Positions 31,552-40,920 of a DNA stretch of 52,391 nucleotides are shown in pieces; the first letter of the stretch is position 1; each line of letters begins with the position of its first letter. Source of the stretch: Nitriliruptoraceae bacterium (GTDB taxonomy: Bacteria > Actinomycetota > Nitriliruptoria > Nitriliruptorales > Nitriliruptoraceae); NCBI GenBank assembly GCA_003558435.1, contig PWLR01000096.1, positions 1 to 52,391 of the forward strand, written 5' to 3'. The notes beneath the pieces are model-generated. The model saw nothing but the letters and a program-made list of their open reading frames with translations. It ran no database searches and had not been told where the DNA came from. The position numbers and the translations under genes are program-made.

Positions 31552-32529
31552 TCAGGCGTTGTCCAGGGTCGGTGGGGGGAGAACATCTGGGGCGCGAAGA
31601 TCGCCCGGGCCTCCGTAGTGTCCTGCAGGGGTCACGATCGTTCCCGCGGTCCCGGCGAGCATCGCCGGGGCGTCATCGAGTCGACCGATCGTCGCCATCC
31701 CGCCGGTGAGTTCCACGAAACGGCAGGCGGCATCGGCCTTCGGGCCCATCGAGCCGGCGGGCAGGTCTTCGCGACGGAGCGCTGCCGGGGTCGCCCGGAG
31801 GATGGGCGTCTCCTCAGGGGTGCCGAAATCGCGGGAGATGTGGGGGACGTCGGTCAGGATCATCAGGAGATCGGCGTCCAACGCTTCGGCGAGCACGGCG
31901 GCGGTGAGATCCTTGTCGACCACCGCTTCGACGCCCTGCAGCTTGCCGCGCTCGTTGCGGATGACCGGGACCCCACCACCTCCGGCGCAGACGACCACGG
32001 CCCCGCTCGCCAGCAGGAGGCGGATGAGCCGCGTCTCGACCACGCGCTGCGGACGGGGGGAACCGATCACGCGGCGCCATCCCGCGCCGTCGGGCCGGAC
32101 CGTCCATCCGCGCTCGTCGGCCAGTCGTCGGGCGCGGGCCTCGTCGTAGACCTCGCCGATGAACTTGGTCGGCGTGTCGAACGCCGGGTCGCTGGCCAGG
32201 ACCAGGGTCTGGTTGATGATGCTCGCGACCTGGCGCCCGGGGAGTTGGTTCTGCAACGCCTGCAGGAGCCAGTAGCCGATCATGCCCTGCGTCTGGGCAC
32301 CGAGGACGTCGAAGGGGTAGGGGGTGGTGAGGTTGGGGTCCGCGGCGCTCTGGAGCGCGAGCACACCGACCTGGGGTCCGTTGCCGTGGGTGAGCACCAG
32401 TTCGTGCTCCTCGGCGAGGGTCGCCAGCGAAGGAACGGCCCGCGCCACGTTCGCCTGCTGGACGGACGCGTCGGGCTTCTGCCCACGTGCGAGCAGGGCG
32501 TTGCCACCGAGCGCTGCGACGATACGCAT
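31552..32529 (-). CDS. arcC: Carbamate kinase
   Basis: Third step of the arginine deiminase pathway: carbamoyl phosphate + ADP to ATP + ammonia + CO2. N-terminal RIVAALGGNALLARGQ, then VLTHGNGPQVG, the mid-region VVCAGGGGVPVI and VDKDLTAAVLAEALDAD, and the C-terminal GSMGPKADAACRFVE with GTAGTIVTP are all family signatures of the amino acid kinase fold. 325 aa, slightly longer than usual because ~18 Pro/Asp-rich residues follow the final strand. ATG 32529 lies only 2 nt after the arcB stop, so it is the last gene of the arcABC operon. A longer in-frame extension over arcB is an artefact. Confidence 0.95.
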   Translation of the reverse strand: MRIVAALGGNALLARGQKPDASVQQANVARAVPSLATLAEEHELVLTHGNGPQVGVLALQSAADPNLTTPYPFDVLGAQTQGMIGYWLLQALQNQLPGRQVASIINQTLVLASDPAFDTPTKFIGEVYDEARARRLADERGWTVRPDGAGWRRVIGSPRPQRVVETRLIRLLLASGAVVVCAGGGGVPVIRNERGKLQGVEAVVDKDLTAAVLAEALDADLLMILTDVPHISRDFGTPEETPILRATPAALRREDLPAGSMGPKADAACRFVELTGGMATIGRLDDAPAMLAGTAGTIVTPAGHYGGPGDLRAPDVLPPPTLDNA

Positions 32530-32531
32530 GC

Positions 32532-33533
32532 TCAGGTCCCCATGGTCGCGACCAGCACGGCCTTGATGGTGTGCATCCGGTTCTCGGCCTGGTCGAAGAC
32601 GATGGAATACTCGGATTCGAACACCTCGTCGGTCACCTCGAGGCAGCTCAGACCCGTGCGCTCGTAGAGCGCGGCCCCCACCGTGGTGTTGCGGTCGTGG
32701 AACGCGGGCAGGCAGTGCATGAACCGGACGTCCGGGTTGCCCGTGGCGCGGACGACCGCCATCGACACCTGGTAGGGCTGCAGCAGCGCGATGCGCTCGT
32801 CCCAGGTCTCGGCCGGTTCCCCCATCGACACCCACACGTCGGTGTAGAGGTAGTCGACCCCCGCGACGCCCGCGTCGAGGTCGTCGGTGTGGGTGATCTG
32901 GGCCCCGGTCGCCGCCGCGATCTCCTGCGCCTGGTCGATGACCGCCGTTTCGTTCCAGAGTTGCTTCGGGGCGACCATGCGCACGTCCATGCCCATCATC
33001 GCTCCGGCGATCAGCAGCGAGTTGGCCACGTTGTTGCGGGCATCGCCGAGGTAGGCGAAGGCGATGTCGTGATCGGGTCCGGCGTGGTGCTCTCTCATGG
33101 TCAGCATGTCGCACAGGCTCTGGGTCGGGTGCCACTGGTCGGTGAGCCCGTTCCAGACCGGTACGGCGGCGAACTCGCCCAGTACCTCGACGTTGTCGTG
33201 GGACGCACCCCGGTACTGGATGCCGTCGTAGTAGCGACCGAGGACACGGGCCGTGTCCTTCATCGATTCCTTGTGACCGATCTGGGAGCCGGACGGGTCC
33301 AGGTAGCTGACGCGTGCGCCCTGGTCGAACGCGGCGACCTCGAAGGCGCACCTGGTCCGCGTCGAGGTCTTCTCGAAGATCAGGGCGATGTTCCTGCCGA
33401 CCAGGTGCTGCTGTTCGGTCCGGTCGCGCTTCGCGCTCTTGAGTTCCGCCGCGAGATCGAGCAGCGAGATCCACTCGTCCCGGCTCAGGTCGGTTTCCTT
33501 CAAGAAGTTTCGTCCGCGCAGGTCGACGGTCAT
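32532..33533 (-). CDS. arcB: Ornithine carbamoyltransferase (catabolic, arginine deiminase pathway)
   Basis: Converts citrulline + phosphate to ornithine + carbamoyl phosphate in this context. 333 aa, standard length. Carbamoyl-phosphate site STRTR at residues 57-61 ([20 protein letters not shown]), [12 protein letters not shown], the ornithine-loop region DVWVSMGEP, and the catalytic HCLPAFHD are all intact. GAGAGG 8 nt before ATG 33533. It sits between arcA and arcC on the same strand. Catabolic rather than anabolic use is assigned from the operon, not from residues. Confidence 0.96.
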
Positions 33534-33582
33534 CGGTTGAGCCTCTCGTGGTGGCGGGTGACGGTTCCGAGATGGCAGCGCA

Positions 33583-34806
33583 TCAAAGGCCGTCGCGCTC
33601 TATCGGGCAGGTCATGCAGCGCGGCCCGCCGCGACCACGACCGAGTTCGTTGCCGGTGATGGTGATGACCTCGAAACCGTTGTGTCGGAGATGGGTGTTG
33701 GTCGTGACGTTTCGCTCGTAGGCGATCACCACGCCGGGGGAGACGGCGAGCACGTTGCAGCCGTCGTCCCACTGCTCACGCTCTGAGGCATGGACGTCCT
33801 GGGTCGCGGTCAGCACGTTGATGCGCTCCAGGCCGAGCGCGTCGGCGATCGCGCCGTGCATGGCACCCGGGTCGTGAGCCGTGACCTTCATCTCCTTCGC
33901 GTCATCGCCGGGCTCGAGCGTGTAGGAAGGCAGCGGGCCCAACCCGGCGTACTGCGTGAACGTCTCCTCGTCGAGCATCGTCAGGACGGTGTCGAGGTGC
34001 GTGAAGGCACGTGCCTCGGGCAGTTGCAGCACCACGACCTTGGATGCCGCGCCTTCGGCGAACAGCGACGTTGCGAGGCGTTCCACTCCGGCGGGGCGGG
34101 TCCGCTCGCTCATGCCTACCAGCACAGCGCCGCGCCCGAGCACCAGTAGATCTCCTCCTTCGGTGGTGGCCACGCCGTTGGGGGTTCCCGGCGACCAGAT
34201 CCGGAAGTCGGCCTCGGCGAAGCTCGGGTGCCAGCGGTAGATGGCCTCGTAGTGGATGGTCTCGCGGGTACGTGCCTTCTTGCGCATCGAGTTGATCGCG
34301 ACGCCACCGTAGATCCATGCCGAGGTGTCGCGGGTGAACAGGTGGTTGGGTAACGGCGGGAGGACGAAGGCATCGAGTTCGAGTGAACGGAAGACGACCG
34401 AGGGAGGTTCCTCGATCCGTTGCAGCAGCTCGCGCTTCGTGACCCCGCCGATGAGTAGCGTGGTCAGCTCCTGCGGGTCCATGGCATCGAGGGCGTTGCG
34501 GAGCGCATCGAGCGCCATCGGGCCGTACACGCGTTCGTCGAAGACGCCATCGAGCACGTGCTTGCGTGCTTCCGGCAAGGTGATGGTCTCGAGGAGGAGT
34601 TCCGCGAACAGGTGGACGGTGACGCCGAGGTCACGCAGCGTGTCGGCGAACGCATCGTGTTCCTGGCGAGCCTTCTTCACCCACAGGACGTCGTCGAACA
34701 GGAAGTCGTCCTTGTTGCTCGGCGTGAGCCGTTTCAACTCGAGATCGGGTCGATGCACGATCACCTGCCGGAGCTGGCCGACCTCAGAGCCGACGACGTA
34801 ACTCAT
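33583..34806 (-). CDS. arcA: Arginine deiminase
   Basis: First step: arginine to citrulline + ammonia. 407 aa from ATG 34806 (AGGAAC upstream; the longer frame to 34950 has no site). Family landmarks: N-terminal [51 protein letters not shown] with EGGD ([11 protein letters not shown]), [14 protein letters not shown], and the C-terminal nucleophile in [18 protein letters not shown] (Cys397 by homology with pseudomonad enzymes). All catalytic residues appear present. Cytosolic. It leads the arcABC operon and is divergent from the YfcC-type carrier with a ~220-bp shared region, which probably contains an arginine- or oxygen-responsive promoter, not identified here. Confidence 0.97.
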
Positions 34807-35026
34807 CCGGGTTCCTGTTCGCGAAGGGTGGGACCCGGACGTCGCTGGGCCTCGAACGATGCTGGCACACCCCGACGTCCGTGGCTCCTGTCCTCCGTCC
34901 CCGACTTTGAGGTCGTTCGACCTGGTCTGCCGGACCTGTCCGTGTGCCACACGGCTCTAGGAGTCCGGCCGGGTGTGACGTTGGATGGACCTGGCGCGGA
35001 ACGCGTGCCCTGACGGGGAGTCACTG

Positions 35027-36553
35027 ATGAGCACCATCGATCCGCGCTCGCCCACGACCGAACCATCGAGCGCCAGCAGGATGCGGTTCCCCAGCGCGTT
35101 CACCGTGTTGTTCGTCGTCACGGTCGCGGTGTGGTTGCTCGCCTTTCTCATCCCCACCGGACAGTACGCCGTCGATGACGAGACCGGCCGGCCCGTGCCC
35201 GGCAGCTACGAGGCGGTCGATGCGGAGCTGACGTTCGGGGATCGCGTCTACGAGCTGTACATGGCGCCGGTGAACGGCCTCTACGGCGTGCAGGATGCGG
35301 AGACGGGCTACATCGGACCTTATGAGTCCGGTGAACTGTTCGGCGCCGCCGGGGTCTTCCTGTTCGTCCTCGCCATCGGGGTGTTCATCACCATGACGAT
35401 GCGGTCGGGTGCCATCGACGCCGGGATCGCCCGCATCGGAACCCGGTTCGGTGGTCGGGCCCTGCCGTTGCTGATCCTGCTGATGCTCATCTTCGCCATC
35501 GGCGGTACGACCGAGGGGATGGCCGAGGAGACGTTGGGCTTCTACGGCCTGGTCGTCCCCCTGGCGTTGAGCCTCGGGTACGACCGGCTCACCGCCGCCG
35601 GCATCATCATCCTGGGCGCCGGCGTCGGGACCCTGGCATCGACGGTGAACCCGTTCGCGACGGGAGCGGCGTCGGCTGCGGCCGATGTCTCGATCGGTGA
35701 CGGGATCGCGTTGCGTGCCGTGATGTTCGTGGTGCTGACCGCGGTGACGATCGCCTACGTCGCACGGTACGCGCAACGGGTGCGCAAGGATCCCTCGCGC
35801 TCCCTGGTCGGTTTCCGTCCCGAGGACCTGCACCTGGCCAACGTGGAATCGCAGACCATGCCGCTCACCAGCCGGCACAAGATCGTGCTGTGGCTGATGG
35901 CTCTCACCTTCACCGTCATGATCGTCGCGATCGTGCCGTGGGCCCAGATCATCAACGGTCCCGAGGCCGCCTCGTTCGCGTGGCAGTTGGACTGGTACTT
36001 CCCCGAACTCGCGGCGCTGTTCCTGGTCATGGGGGTGGTCATCGGCCTGATCGCGGGTCTGGGTGAGAAGGGCATGACCGACACGATCGTCTCCGGTGCC
36101 GGCGACTTCATCGGTGCCGGGCTCATCATCGTGCTCGCCCGCGGGGTGACGGTCATCATGAACAACTCGCTGATCACCGACACGATCCTCAACTCCCTCG
36201 AGGACGCCGTCAGCGGGACCTCCTCCGCACTCTTCGGTGCCGCGATGTTCGTGGTCAACGTCCCGCTCGCGTTCCTCGTACCGTCCAGTTCAGGACATGC
36301 GACCTTGGCGATGCCGGTCCTCGCTCCGCTCGCGGACTTCGCCGGGGTCGGTCGCGAGATCGTGGTCACCGCCTTCCAGTCCGCGTCCGGATGGATGAAC
36401 CTGTTCACCCCGACCTCGGCGGTCGTCATGGGTGGTCTGGCGCTCGCCGGGGTCGGCTACAACAAGTTCCTCCGGTTCGTCGCTCCGCTCCTGGCGATCC
36501 TGTTCGTGCTGGTCCTGGCCTTCGTCGCGGTCGGTGCGATGCTGAGCGGATGA
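35027..36553 (+). CDS. YfcC-family carrier, probable arginine/ornithine or basic amino acid transporter
   Basis: 508 aa, about 12-13 membrane helices. Characteristic YfcC/DcuC-type segments: FIPTGQYAVDDETGRPVPGS after helix 1, FAIGGTTEGMAEETLGFYGL, ILGAGVGTLASTVNPFATG, and late FLVPSSSGHATLAMPVLAPL and GWMNLFTPTSAVVMG. The two re-entrant-like polar motifs resemble those of the ion-transporter superfamily. ATG 35027 has GGGGAG about 7 nt upstream. Divergent from arcA; YfcC-type carriers are known partners of arginine deiminase clusters in several bacteria, so exchange of arginine for ornithine is the best guess. Substrate is an inference from context. Confidence 0.88.
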   Translation: MSTIDPRSPTTEPSSASRMRFPSAFTVLFVVTVAVWLLAFLIPTGQYAVDDETGRPVPGSYEAVDAELTFGDRVYELYMAPVNGLYGVQDAETGYIGPYESGELFGAAGVFLFVLAIGVFITMTMRSGAIDAGIARIGTRFGGRALPLLILLMLIFAIGGTTEGMAEETLGFYGLVVPLALSLGYDRLTAAGIIILGAGVGTLASTVNPFATGAASAAADVSIGDGIALRAVMFVVLTAVTIAYVARYAQRVRKDPSRSLVGFRPEDLHLANVESQTMPLTSRHKIVLWLMALTFTVMIVAIVPWAQIINGPEAASFAWQLDWYFPELAALFLVMGVVIGLIAGLGEKGMTDTIVSGAGDFIGAGLIIVLARGVTVIMNNSLITDTILNSLEDAVSGTSSALFGAAMFVVNVPLAFLVPSSSGHATLAMPVLAPLADFAGVGREIVVTAFQSASGWMNLFTPTSAVVMGGLALAGVGYNKFLRFVAPLLAILFVLVLAFVAVGAMLSG

Positions 36554-38243: not shown

Positions 38244-39002
38244 TCAGTCGTAGACGCAGGTCGGTCCCTGCGGCGGCTGGTCGAGGATTCCGATCTCCCG
38301 GTGGGGTCCCACGATGTGGTCGCTCAGGGACGCGATGAGGTCACCCTCTTGGGTGACTCGCGACCGGTAGCGATCGAGCCCGCGTGGCGCAGGGCCCGCT
38401 GTCCACTCACCCCACCTATTGAAACGGGACCCGTGGCAGGGCTCCTCGAACCACTGCGACGCCTCGCAGAACCGCACACGACAGTCGGCGTGGGTAGAGG
38501 ACAGCAGCGAGAGCACCAGCAGGCCCGTCGTAGCGTCCACGATGGGATGGTCTTCTGCTTCGGGGCCATAGCGGTCGAGCGCCGAACCAGCCTCCGACCG
38601 GTACGAGGGGTCCCAGGTGACCACGGCAAGGCGGGCGACCCGGTCGGGCAGCAGCAGCGGACCGTCGCGTCGGATGCGATCCAGCACGTGGTCGATCGCG
38701 CCGATGCGAAGGTCCGCGGTCGGCAGACCCTCGCCATCGAGGGGGGCGGCGGGCCGGGTCATCAGCGAGCCGAGGAGGCCGCCTACCAGCACACCTCCGA
38801 CGGCGGCCAGGACCGTGCGGCGAGGGATCGTTCTGTCCGGCCCGGGTCCGTCCGGAAGCGCTGAAGGCTGGCCGCTCGCGTCGTGGGCGGCCGAGCCGTC
38901 AGCGCAAGGGGACGGTTCCTGCCGTGCGCCGCATCGTCCGCAGAACCGGCCCTGATCGCGGGTGCCGCACTGTGGGCAGTCACGGGGTCCGGCGGCATGC
39001 AT
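38244..39002 (-). CDS. Zinc-ribbon, membrane-anchored Rieske-fold protein without cysteine ligands
   Basis: 252 aa in three parts. Residues 9-24 are a zinc ribbon (CPQCGTRDQGRFCGRCG). Residues ~60-82 hold a twin-Arg-like start and a membrane helix (IPRRTVLAAVGGVLVGGLLG). Residues ~120-215 show a Rieske fold with GPAPRGLDRY typical of QcrA-like proteins. But box 1 reads STHADC (usual CTHxGC) and box 2 reads EEPCHGSRFN (usual CPCHGS): ligand Cys are Ser169 and Glu187, while His171, His190 and the disulfide Cys174/Cys189 are kept. I verified this codon by codon. So a normal 2Fe-2S cluster cannot form; a structural role or another metal site is possible. Start 39002 is ATG; no partner bc1 genes are nearby. 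Confidence 0.8.
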   Translation of the reverse strand: MHAAGPRDCPQCGTRDQGRFCGRCGARQEPSPCADGSAAHDASGQPSALPDGPGPDRTIPRRTVLAAVGGVLVGGLLGSLMTRPAAPLDGEGLPTADLRIGAIDHVLDRIRRDGPLLLPDRVARLAVVTWDPSYRSEAGSALDRYGPEAEDHPIVDATTGLLVLSLLSSTHADCRVRFCEASQWFEEPCHGSRFNRWGEWTAGPAPRGLDRYRSRVTQEGDLIASLSDHIVGPHREIGILDQPPQGPTCVYD

Positions 39003-39732
39003 CTATCCCCAGCCCTCCATCGGGTCGCTCACGGTAAGTCGTTGACGTCGGCGTTGGCAACGGGGTTCGATCGGCATGCGCCCACCTCGTCTCGTAGACA
39101 CCCGGCCCCGCGCTGCGTGTGGTGACGGGAGAGAGGTGTGATGGTGGCCACCCGCGCGTCTCATCGAGCCTCCCGCAACGCGGTCCCTGGCACGCAACGG
39201 CGTGGTGAACGGCGAACACCGATCGCCGCCCACGAGCAAGGACCGCGTCGGTGTCGCCGGTTCGGACGCTGACCGGCCACGGCGCATCACGCCGTAGGTG
39301 ACACGGCACCCGTGGCCCACGAGCGCATGAACCATCGTCAGGGTCCGCCAAGAAGACGGGTTGTCGGATCATCGCGCTCCGGAGCGGAGTCCGGCCGTGA
39401 GCGGTCGCCCCGGTGTCCTACGGGAGGACAACGTGGTCGCCGACGGCTTCCGGGATCACTCTCAGATCGTTGTGAGGCTCACCGCCGACGACGGCCCGTC
39501 CGACGACGTCGCCGGTGGGGTCAGCGGTGAGGTCTTGTCGTTCACCACTGGAGCGCGGCAGAGATGGTGGTGTTGGCACCACCAGGTGTGCTCGGGCGCA
39601 GCCGCATGACCGGTCGATGCTCCGCTGAGCGCACTTCTGCGGTACGCAGCGGATGGCGCCGGTGTATGAACCGCAGTGAGGCCCAGAGCGGGCCCTCCGT
39701 CACTGAACGTGCCGGGCAGGAGAGGAACGCAC
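39003..39732. other. Intergenic region containing a remnant of the downstream gene
   Basis: About 730 bases. Most frames are non-coding, but 39495-39543 encodes DDVAGGVSGEVLSF, matching DVVGGVSGEVLSF near the end of the secreted-protein gene; see the 31-bp repeat. It suggests a decayed second copy. The secreted-protein promoter should lie near 39600-39700. Confidence 0.5.
39513..39543 (+). repeat. 31-bp direct repeat, upstream copy
   Basis: Identical over 31 bases to 40818-40848 and, with one mismatch, over about 8 more bases to the left. Same orientation, 1305 bases apart. It lies in apparently non-coding DNA but in a frame matching the coding copy. Confidence 0.9.
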
Positions 39733-40920
39733 ATGCGTTCGTATCGCAGCAGGTACGTGCACCGGACGGTGTTGTTGTCGCTGACGACAGCGCTCGTGGT
39801 CGGCCAGCCGATGGCAGCGCTCGCCGCACCGGACAACGACGACCGGGCGAACGCCGCGCCGGTCACGACCATCCCGTTCAACGACGTGGTGGACGTCAGC
39901 GACGCCACCGTCGAGGACGACGAGCCCGGGACGGGCTGCCTGACCTTCGACGACGATGATGGGTTGTTCGAGGTCCCGGTTGGCAACACCGTCTGGTACG
40001 AGGTGTCGCTGCGCAATCGCACGCAGGTGCTCGTCGACACCGCGGGCTCCGGGTTCGACACCGTTGCGGTCGTCTACGACAGTGACCTCAACGAGATCGC
40101 GTGTAACGACGATGCCGGAAACCTGCAGGCGAAGGTCGACTTCACCGCTCAGCGCGGCCAGACCTACCTCGTCAAGATCGGTTCGTACGGCGGTGGCATC
40201 GACGCGGAGTACGACGACCCGACGCTGGTGGTGTCGATCGACCGCGGCCGCGTCAAGACCCGCGAGCTCAACCCCAACCGTCCGGAGCGCTACTCCTTCC
40301 GCGGTCTGCGTGCGGACGCCGGCGACTGGCAGTTCGAGGAGGACGAGGACGGCTACCGCTACGGCGGCGAGGGCGTCGGCATCATGCAGGGCCGTCAACA
40401 GGACTCCTGGTCGCGTGGGAACACCCGCATCGCCGGGGTCAACGTCTACCGCTACGAGGGGGAGGTCGACTTCGTGAAGCAGACCGAGACCTTCACCGAC
40501 TGGTGGGGCTACGAGCCGCTCGTCAACGGTGACATCGATCGCCGGCTTCGCGCCGCCTCCGTCAACCAGGATGTCTGGGTGGAGGGCTACAGCTGCACCG
40601 GTCCGGTCGTGGATTGGGACGATGACGAGTGGGGTGACGGGGAGGACGAGTGGATCGAGTACGACTGCACCGAGCTCGGGTCCGGCACGGTGCGCGCGAC
40701 CGTGGACTGGGCCGGCTACGGCGCGACGACGCGCTCGAGCTCCCGTGGGCGCTACCAGGACGAGTGGGGGACGGACACGTTCCGCTACCGGGCCAGCGAG
40801 CGTGCCGCCGACGTCGTCGGTGGGGTCAGCGGTGAGGTCTTGTCGTTCGACCTGACCGGTGCCGACGGCTACCTCGCCGACGTTCAGGAGGCGTACTCGT
40901 TCCGCTACGCCCGACGGTGA
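39733..40920 (+). CDS. Secreted acidic protein with PPC-like beta-sandwich domain
   Basis: 395 aa, exported. Signal peptide at residues 1-33 (basic start, then TVLLSLTTALVVGQPMAALA, cleavage after AALA). Next ~125 residues resemble a bacterial pre-peptidase C-terminal domain: NDDRANAAPVTTIPFNDVVD, GNTVWYEVSLRNRTQVLVDT, SGFDTVAVVYDS and GQTYLVKIGSYGG. The remaining ~230 residues are Asp/Glu/Trp/Tyr-rich beta-type sequence (DWDDDEWGDGEDEWIEYD) with two Cys, without a recognised enzyme motif. The acidity suits a halotolerant cell exterior or Ca2+ binding. AGGAGAGGAAC precedes ATG 39733. No sortase signal. Confidence 0.8.
   Translation: MRSYRSRYVHRTVLLSLTTALVVGQPMAALAAPDNDDRANAAPVTTIPFNDVVDVSDATVEDDEPGTGCLTFDDDDGLFEVPVGNTVWYEVSLRNRTQVLVDTAGSGFDTVAVVYDSDLNEIACNDDAGNLQAKVDFTAQRGQTYLVKIGSYGGGIDAEYDDPTLVVSIDRGRVKTRELNPNRPERYSFRGLRADAGDWQFEEDEDGYRYGGEGVGIMQGRQQDSWSRGNTRIAGVNVYRYEGEVDFVKQTETFTDWWGYEPLVNGDIDRRLRAASVNQDVWVEGYSCTGPVVDWDDDEWGDGEDEWIEYDCTELGSGTVRATVDWAGYGATTRSSSRGRYQDEWGTDTFRYRASERAADVVGGVSGEVLSFDLTGADGYLADVQEAYSFRYARR
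40818..40848 (+). repeat. 31-bp direct repeat, coding copy
   Basis: Partner of 39513-39543, inside the 3' end of the secreted-protein gene; encodes part of GGVSGEVLSF. Confidence 0.9.

Follow-up and report, generated by a model that had tools for sequence, protein, structure and literature searches.

Naturally cluster-less Rieske proteins have already been described, and the finding presented below is therefore partly anticipated. The Acidocella ISP is a Rieske subunit without its cluster, which has lost three or four ligands but retains the disulfide, and for which a structural role in the bc1 complex has been proposed (PMC10715153). The mFDX-like protein of plant complex I is a paralogue of a [2Fe-2S] protein that has lost a cysteine ligand; it does not bind a cluster, which its L85C variant regains, and it plays a structural part in respiratory complexes (PMC10069907). 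Finally, NirD of Bacillus bataviensis is a Rieske-type protein in which one cysteine and one histidine ligand are substituted (PMC3475470).

The gene described here lies in a stretch of 52,391 nucleotides from a Nitriliruptoraceae genome (the whole stretch is referred to as the window). A sequence-only reading had proposed that it encodes a Rieske fold in which both cysteine ligands are replaced and the histidines and disulfide are kept. We consider its product to be, probably, a neofunctionalised, cluster-free paralogue of the bc/b6f-type Rieske protein, membrane-anchored and with an N-terminal zinc ribbon, that has been retained as a binding or structural module.

Architecture of the window protein

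The open reading frame of the presumed cluster-free Rieske-fold paralogue (252 amino acids; 38244..39002, minus strand) starts with an ATG at 39002, which is preceded by GGAGG, and its stop codon ends at 38244. Its coding score is low (13.5), and its assignment is based on the open reading frame, full-length homologues and the dN/dS of an orthologue pair (see below). At the N-terminus, residues 9-24 (CPQCGTRDQGRFCGRC; 38931..38978, minus strand) form a CxxC-x8-CxxC motif, a putative zinc ribbon that is predicted to be cytoplasmic; its Pfam match is below the threshold (17.5 vs 24.8 bits), and a motif of this type also occurs in the orthologues of genomes G008 and G033. It is followed by a twin arginine (residues 61-62) and a hydrophobic helix (RRTVLAAVGGVLVGGLLGSLMT; ca. 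residues 61-83, 38754..38822, minus strand) with a hydropathy of 1.99 across 19 residues. A twin arginine precedes the helix in three members of the group (RRTVL, RRQLL and RRELL), and RRTFLRYSL occupies this position in the canonical paralogues; judged from sequence, this stretch is similar to the canonical protein's Tat-type anchor. The membrane anchor with a cytoplasmic zinc ribbon that had been read from the sequence is upheld at the level of prediction. In the orthologue of genome G030 (L033, G030:C322) the zinc ribbon, upstream of 5886 on the minus strand, is out of frame with the Rieske domain; the 5′ end of this copy is frameshifted and the membrane helix is absent from the assembled sequence, which may reflect either decay or an assembly error.

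The remainder of the protein (ca. residues 95-250; 38253..38720, minus strand) is predicted to be an extracytoplasmic domain that, according to its AlphaFold2 model, retains the Rieske fold. The model has block pLDDT values of 84-98 across residues 101-250 and is of low confidence before ca. residue 90. The best 50 PDB matches obtained with Foldseek were all Rieske proteins or Rieske-containing complexes, the top match being 9rk4_A with a TM score of 0.75 by target length, and phmmer also matched the protein to Rieske proteins in the PDB (E 1.6e-8 for 9rk4). Searches with Pfam and NCBIfam gave Rieske and zinc-ribbon matches to the window protein below threshold only, and all four members known (see below) score 12.5-13.8 bits against the Pfam Rieske profile, under the cut-off of 20.3. 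Annotation by Rieske profile consequently misses such proteins, as for all four members here, or would miscall them iron-sulfur proteins.

Loss of the cysteine ligands in one clade

The two ligand boxes of the window protein read S169-T-H171-A-D-C174 and E187-P-C189-H190-G-S. Ser169 (TCT; 38496..38498) and Glu187 (GAG; 38442..38444) occupy positions that are Cys in 100% of 43 canonical homologues, whereas the two cluster histidines (His171, 38490..38492; His190, 38433..38435) and the two disulfide cysteines (Cys174, 38481..38483; Cys189, 38436..38438) are retained, all on the minus strand and all four present in every member of the group, and so is the proline turn GPAPRGLDRY of the window protein. 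The alignment thereby bears out this part of the sequence-only reading, which had reported neither the minus-strand position of the gene nor a third replacement found in all four members, i.e., that of Tyr194. This tyrosine, which lies beside the cluster, where it forms a hydrogen bond with a ligand cysteine of Rieske proteins, and which is present in 100% of the canonical homologues, is Phe in the window protein (38421..38423, minus strand) and F/F/F/W across the four members.

A search of 61 related genomes yielded three relatives scoring 203-224 bits, with 47-55% identity to the window protein, and many others at 144 bits or less. The three closest relatives also have neither cysteine: positions 169 and 187 are occupied by S/E in the window protein, S/G in G008, S/G in G033 and S/D in G030, as seen in both alignment and codons. 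Among the 65 aligned homologues, a motif search recovered both cysteines in 60 of the 61 others, and their absence is confined to the window protein and its three closest relatives; the exception, L010, has a first box (CPHLGGG) that the motif search missed and a second box reading ECPCHG, so that all 61 homologues outside the group have both cysteines wherever the boxes are readable. An isolated mutation or a sequencing error is ruled out, since three orthologues in other genomes have the same loss, and a single base error is excluded because all three bases of GAG would have to change to give a Cys codon. A cysteine hidden by misalignment at the second site is equally ruled out, the spacing and the flanking WFExPCHGS aligning without gaps. 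As to the other homologues, L010 (G021:C380) is an otherwise canonical Rieske protein in which CPHLGG stands for CPHLGC, the first disulfide cysteine being lost, which may be an error of the metagenome-assembled genome (MAG). In L013 (G018:C54), a second Rieske copy, the boxes are separated by sequence with a TGA in frame (VP*C vs VPWC in relatives).

The four cysteine-less proteins form one clade (ultrafast bootstrap/SH-aLRT 100/97) on a long stem, beside a clade in which most of the canonical Rieske proteins of the Nitriliruptoraceae fall, and share clade-specific insertions and the gained zinc ribbon. The tree and the alignment thus establish, at the level of sequence, a single origin for the loss of the cysteine ligands. 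The members span three genera, and the gene occurs in 4 of 35 genomes of the family. The three orthologues come from MAGs, on contigs labelled Nitriliruptoraceae or Actinomycetota, so that at least three of the four known members, and perhaps all, are derived from MAGs. No fifth member was found at E <= 1e-40 in a search of the class, where scores drop from 331 to 184 bits, nor when 84,980 species genomes were scanned with a single sequence, and an alignment-based scan returned no contigs beyond the three MAG contigs already known.

Columns at least 95% conserved in the 43 canonical sequences number 41, of which five belong to the N-terminal signal region and the other 36 to the domain. Of the latter, 23 are intact in every one of the four members, among them His171, His190, Cys174, Cys179, Cys189 and Cys249, and only Cys169, Cys187 and Tyr194 are changed in all four. 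Therefore, the loss is focused on residues that hold or tune the cysteine side of the cluster; a hand calculation puts the chance of all three changes hitting the six cluster-binding or hydrogen-bonding residues at ca. 0.003. The tyrosine raises the potential through its hydrogen bond to a coordinating cysteine, and Phe alone at this position occurs in the working Rieske protein Kustd1480 (PMC12954380); its loss is, therefore, supporting and not decisive.

Canonical Rieske genes and the neighbourhood of the cysteine-less gene

Canonical Rieske genes were read in G000, G001, G007, G008, G028 and G033 in an operon with a ferredoxin, a split cytochrome b and further membrane proteins; these identities derive from reading the sequences, with cytochrome b confirmed by PF13631. 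Three of the genomes with a cysteine-less gene, i.e., the genome of the window, G008 and G033, have a canonical Rieske gene in such a split cytochrome b operon; in G030, a genome that is 53% complete, no canonical bc-operon Rieske gene of the family was found. The canonical protein of the window's own genome (G000:C256, L034:6393-6998) resembles the window protein in its Rieske fold, its twin arginine followed by a single hydrophobic helix, the disulfide cysteines, both histidines, the GPAPRGLDRY turn and a C-terminal GPxR...EGPxC tail. It differs in having both cysteine ligands and Tyr194, in being encoded in an operon with the cytochrome b halves and in being without a zinc ribbon. In this genome there are two cytochrome b genes, each adjoining its own canonical Rieske gene, so that neither is orphaned, and the idea that the window protein replaces the Rieske subunit of an orphan cytochrome b is thereby ruled out there. 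Cytochrome b is absent from the vicinity of the cysteine-less gene at all four loci, the cytochrome b genes being located elsewhere, and no evident gene is common to the four loci that could be a conserved neighbour or operon partner.

Extra Rieske paralogues with both cysteines intact occur, in addition to the operon copy, in G033 (L036, G033:C45:1211-1753) and G007 (L074, G007:C1:837893-838471), that of G033 sitting away from cytochrome b. Possibly, these represent intermediates between the operon copy and the cysteine-less copy. Elsewhere in the window, positions 31552-36553 hold what looks like an arginine deiminase pathway cluster, in which minus-strand genes were read as carbamate kinase, ornithine carbamoyltransferase and arginine deiminase and a plus-strand gene as a YfcC/ArcD-like transporter. 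Of the two copies of a 44-nt direct repeat (39500-39543 and 40805-40848; 95% identical, 1305 bases apart), the first precedes the gene at 39676-40920 and the second is near the 3′ end of this gene, as if a fragment of it had been duplicated.

Possible roles of the cysteine-less protein

Once the two cysteines are gone the Fe1 side has no ligand, from which we infer that a Rieske cluster is very unlikely; without a [2Fe-2S] cluster held in the Rieske manner, no electron transfer by the Rieske route is expected. A cluster could, nevertheless, be held by non-canonical ligands, i.e., Ser, Glu and water or Cys174, Cys179 and Cys189, and transfer electrons at an altered potential, and these three cysteines and both histidines are indeed kept in all four members. 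However, Cys174, Cys179, Cys189 and Cys249 are equally conserved in canonical relatives with normal ligands and are, therefore, more likely to form disulfides, one of them predicted between Cys179 and Cys249. Furthermore, the clade has no newly conserved cysteine, two members have Gly at the second ligand site, and the mFDX-like protein, with one Cys lost, already cannot bind a cluster (PMC10069907), so we regard this as a very improbable solution. The invariance of both histidines and the retention of Ser169 through four different TCN codons (TCT, TCG, TCA and TCC) could mean that a metal or another ligand is still bound. In a mononuclear site the two histidines, with Ser169, residue 187 or water, would coordinate Fe, Zn or Cu and act in catalysis or sensing, much as a single metal ion replaced the cluster in the mFDX-like protein (PMC10069907). 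This seems rather unlikely to us: residue 187 is Glu, Gly, Gly and Asp across the clade, so that the carboxylate ligand is not conserved and the 2-His plus Glu/Ser non-heme triad suggested by the sequence-only reading is not supported, the known Zn-loaded, cluster-less Rieske structure binds its metal via the two cysteines missing here with the His-side Fe2 position empty (PMC10492824), and two retained histidines are, by themselves, unsurprising in a mostly conserved loop. In a more specific version, the Rieske pocket has become a 2-His mononuclear site within a membrane-anchored domain that is exported; some members would supply a carboxylate (Glu/Asp187) and others, with Gly187, would not, in parallel to the difference between oxygenases of the 2-His-1-carboxylate type and 2-His halogenases. 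If true, this would make the protein the first of a class of metalloproteins derived from the Rieske fold and linked to a zinc ribbon in the cytoplasm, and we consider it extremely improbable.

The gene might also be a decaying, functionless duplicate of the bc-complex Rieske gene that is heading for loss, in line with its patchy presence in the family, the long branches in the tree, the frameshifted 5′ end and missing helix of the G030 copy and the lack of conserved gene neighbours. However, the open reading frames are intact in three members, the window protein being 48-49% identical to the other two, and the G008/G033 pair, on which the estimate rests since dS exceeds 1 and is unreliable between more distant members, has a dN/dS of 0.194/0.94, ca. 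0.21, which shows purifying selection in this pair. The 23 conserved domain columns kept throughout, the restriction of universal change to three cluster-related residues, and the zinc ribbon and insertions held in common also argue against decay, which we therefore judge unlikely. The single-origin clade and the selection in the one pair tested fit the selective, evolved loss of the cluster cysteines that had been proposed from the sequence.

The explanation that we prefer, a retained cluster-free module, would start from a duplication in the Nitriliruptoraceae that yielded a stand-alone Rieske copy, which would then have lost the two Fe1-binding cysteines, together with the tyrosine hydrogen-bonded to a ligand cysteine, and acquired the N-terminal zinc ribbon. 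Insertion through the predicted Tat-type signal anchor would probably place the Rieske domain, braced by its disulfide, outside the cell membrane, while the zinc ribbon would stay cytoplasmic. The preserved Rieske tip would most likely serve as a docking or structural surface and may, by analogy with the mFDX-like protein, for example serve in the binding, assembly or regulation of the bc complex or of some other exported partner; this docking role is a guess. The fold does not depend on the cluster: apo TtPetA with Zn keeps its pocket, the Rieske site being pre-formed before cluster insertion (PMC10492824). The protein cleanly illustrates how an electron carrier of the respiratory chain can be stripped of its cluster-binding chemistry alone, with the fold kept and an intact copy in the same genomes, and allows asking what the Rieske surface does without electrons and whether the histidine half holds something else.

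The described proteins with lost cluster ligands differ from this protein in several respects. The mFDX-like protein is a mitochondrial ferredoxin that does not have the Rieske fold and resides in the bridge domain of complex I (PMC10069907), and NirD of B. bataviensis is a nitrite reductase subunit that lost one ligand of each kind and not both cysteines (PMC3475470). In view of the Acidocella ISP, the earlier statement that no protein with this combination had been described does not hold for a cluster-less Rieske protein with its disulfide as such. It stands with respect to the ligands involved: in Acidocella the three or four lost include His, the protein is described as belonging, as its ISP subunit, to a deranged bc1 complex, and the passages considered mention no zinc ribbon (PMC10715153). 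What is new, as far as the literature considered shows, is thus the combination of a loss limited to the cysteine ligands, invariant histidines, a stand-alone gene and a zinc ribbon.
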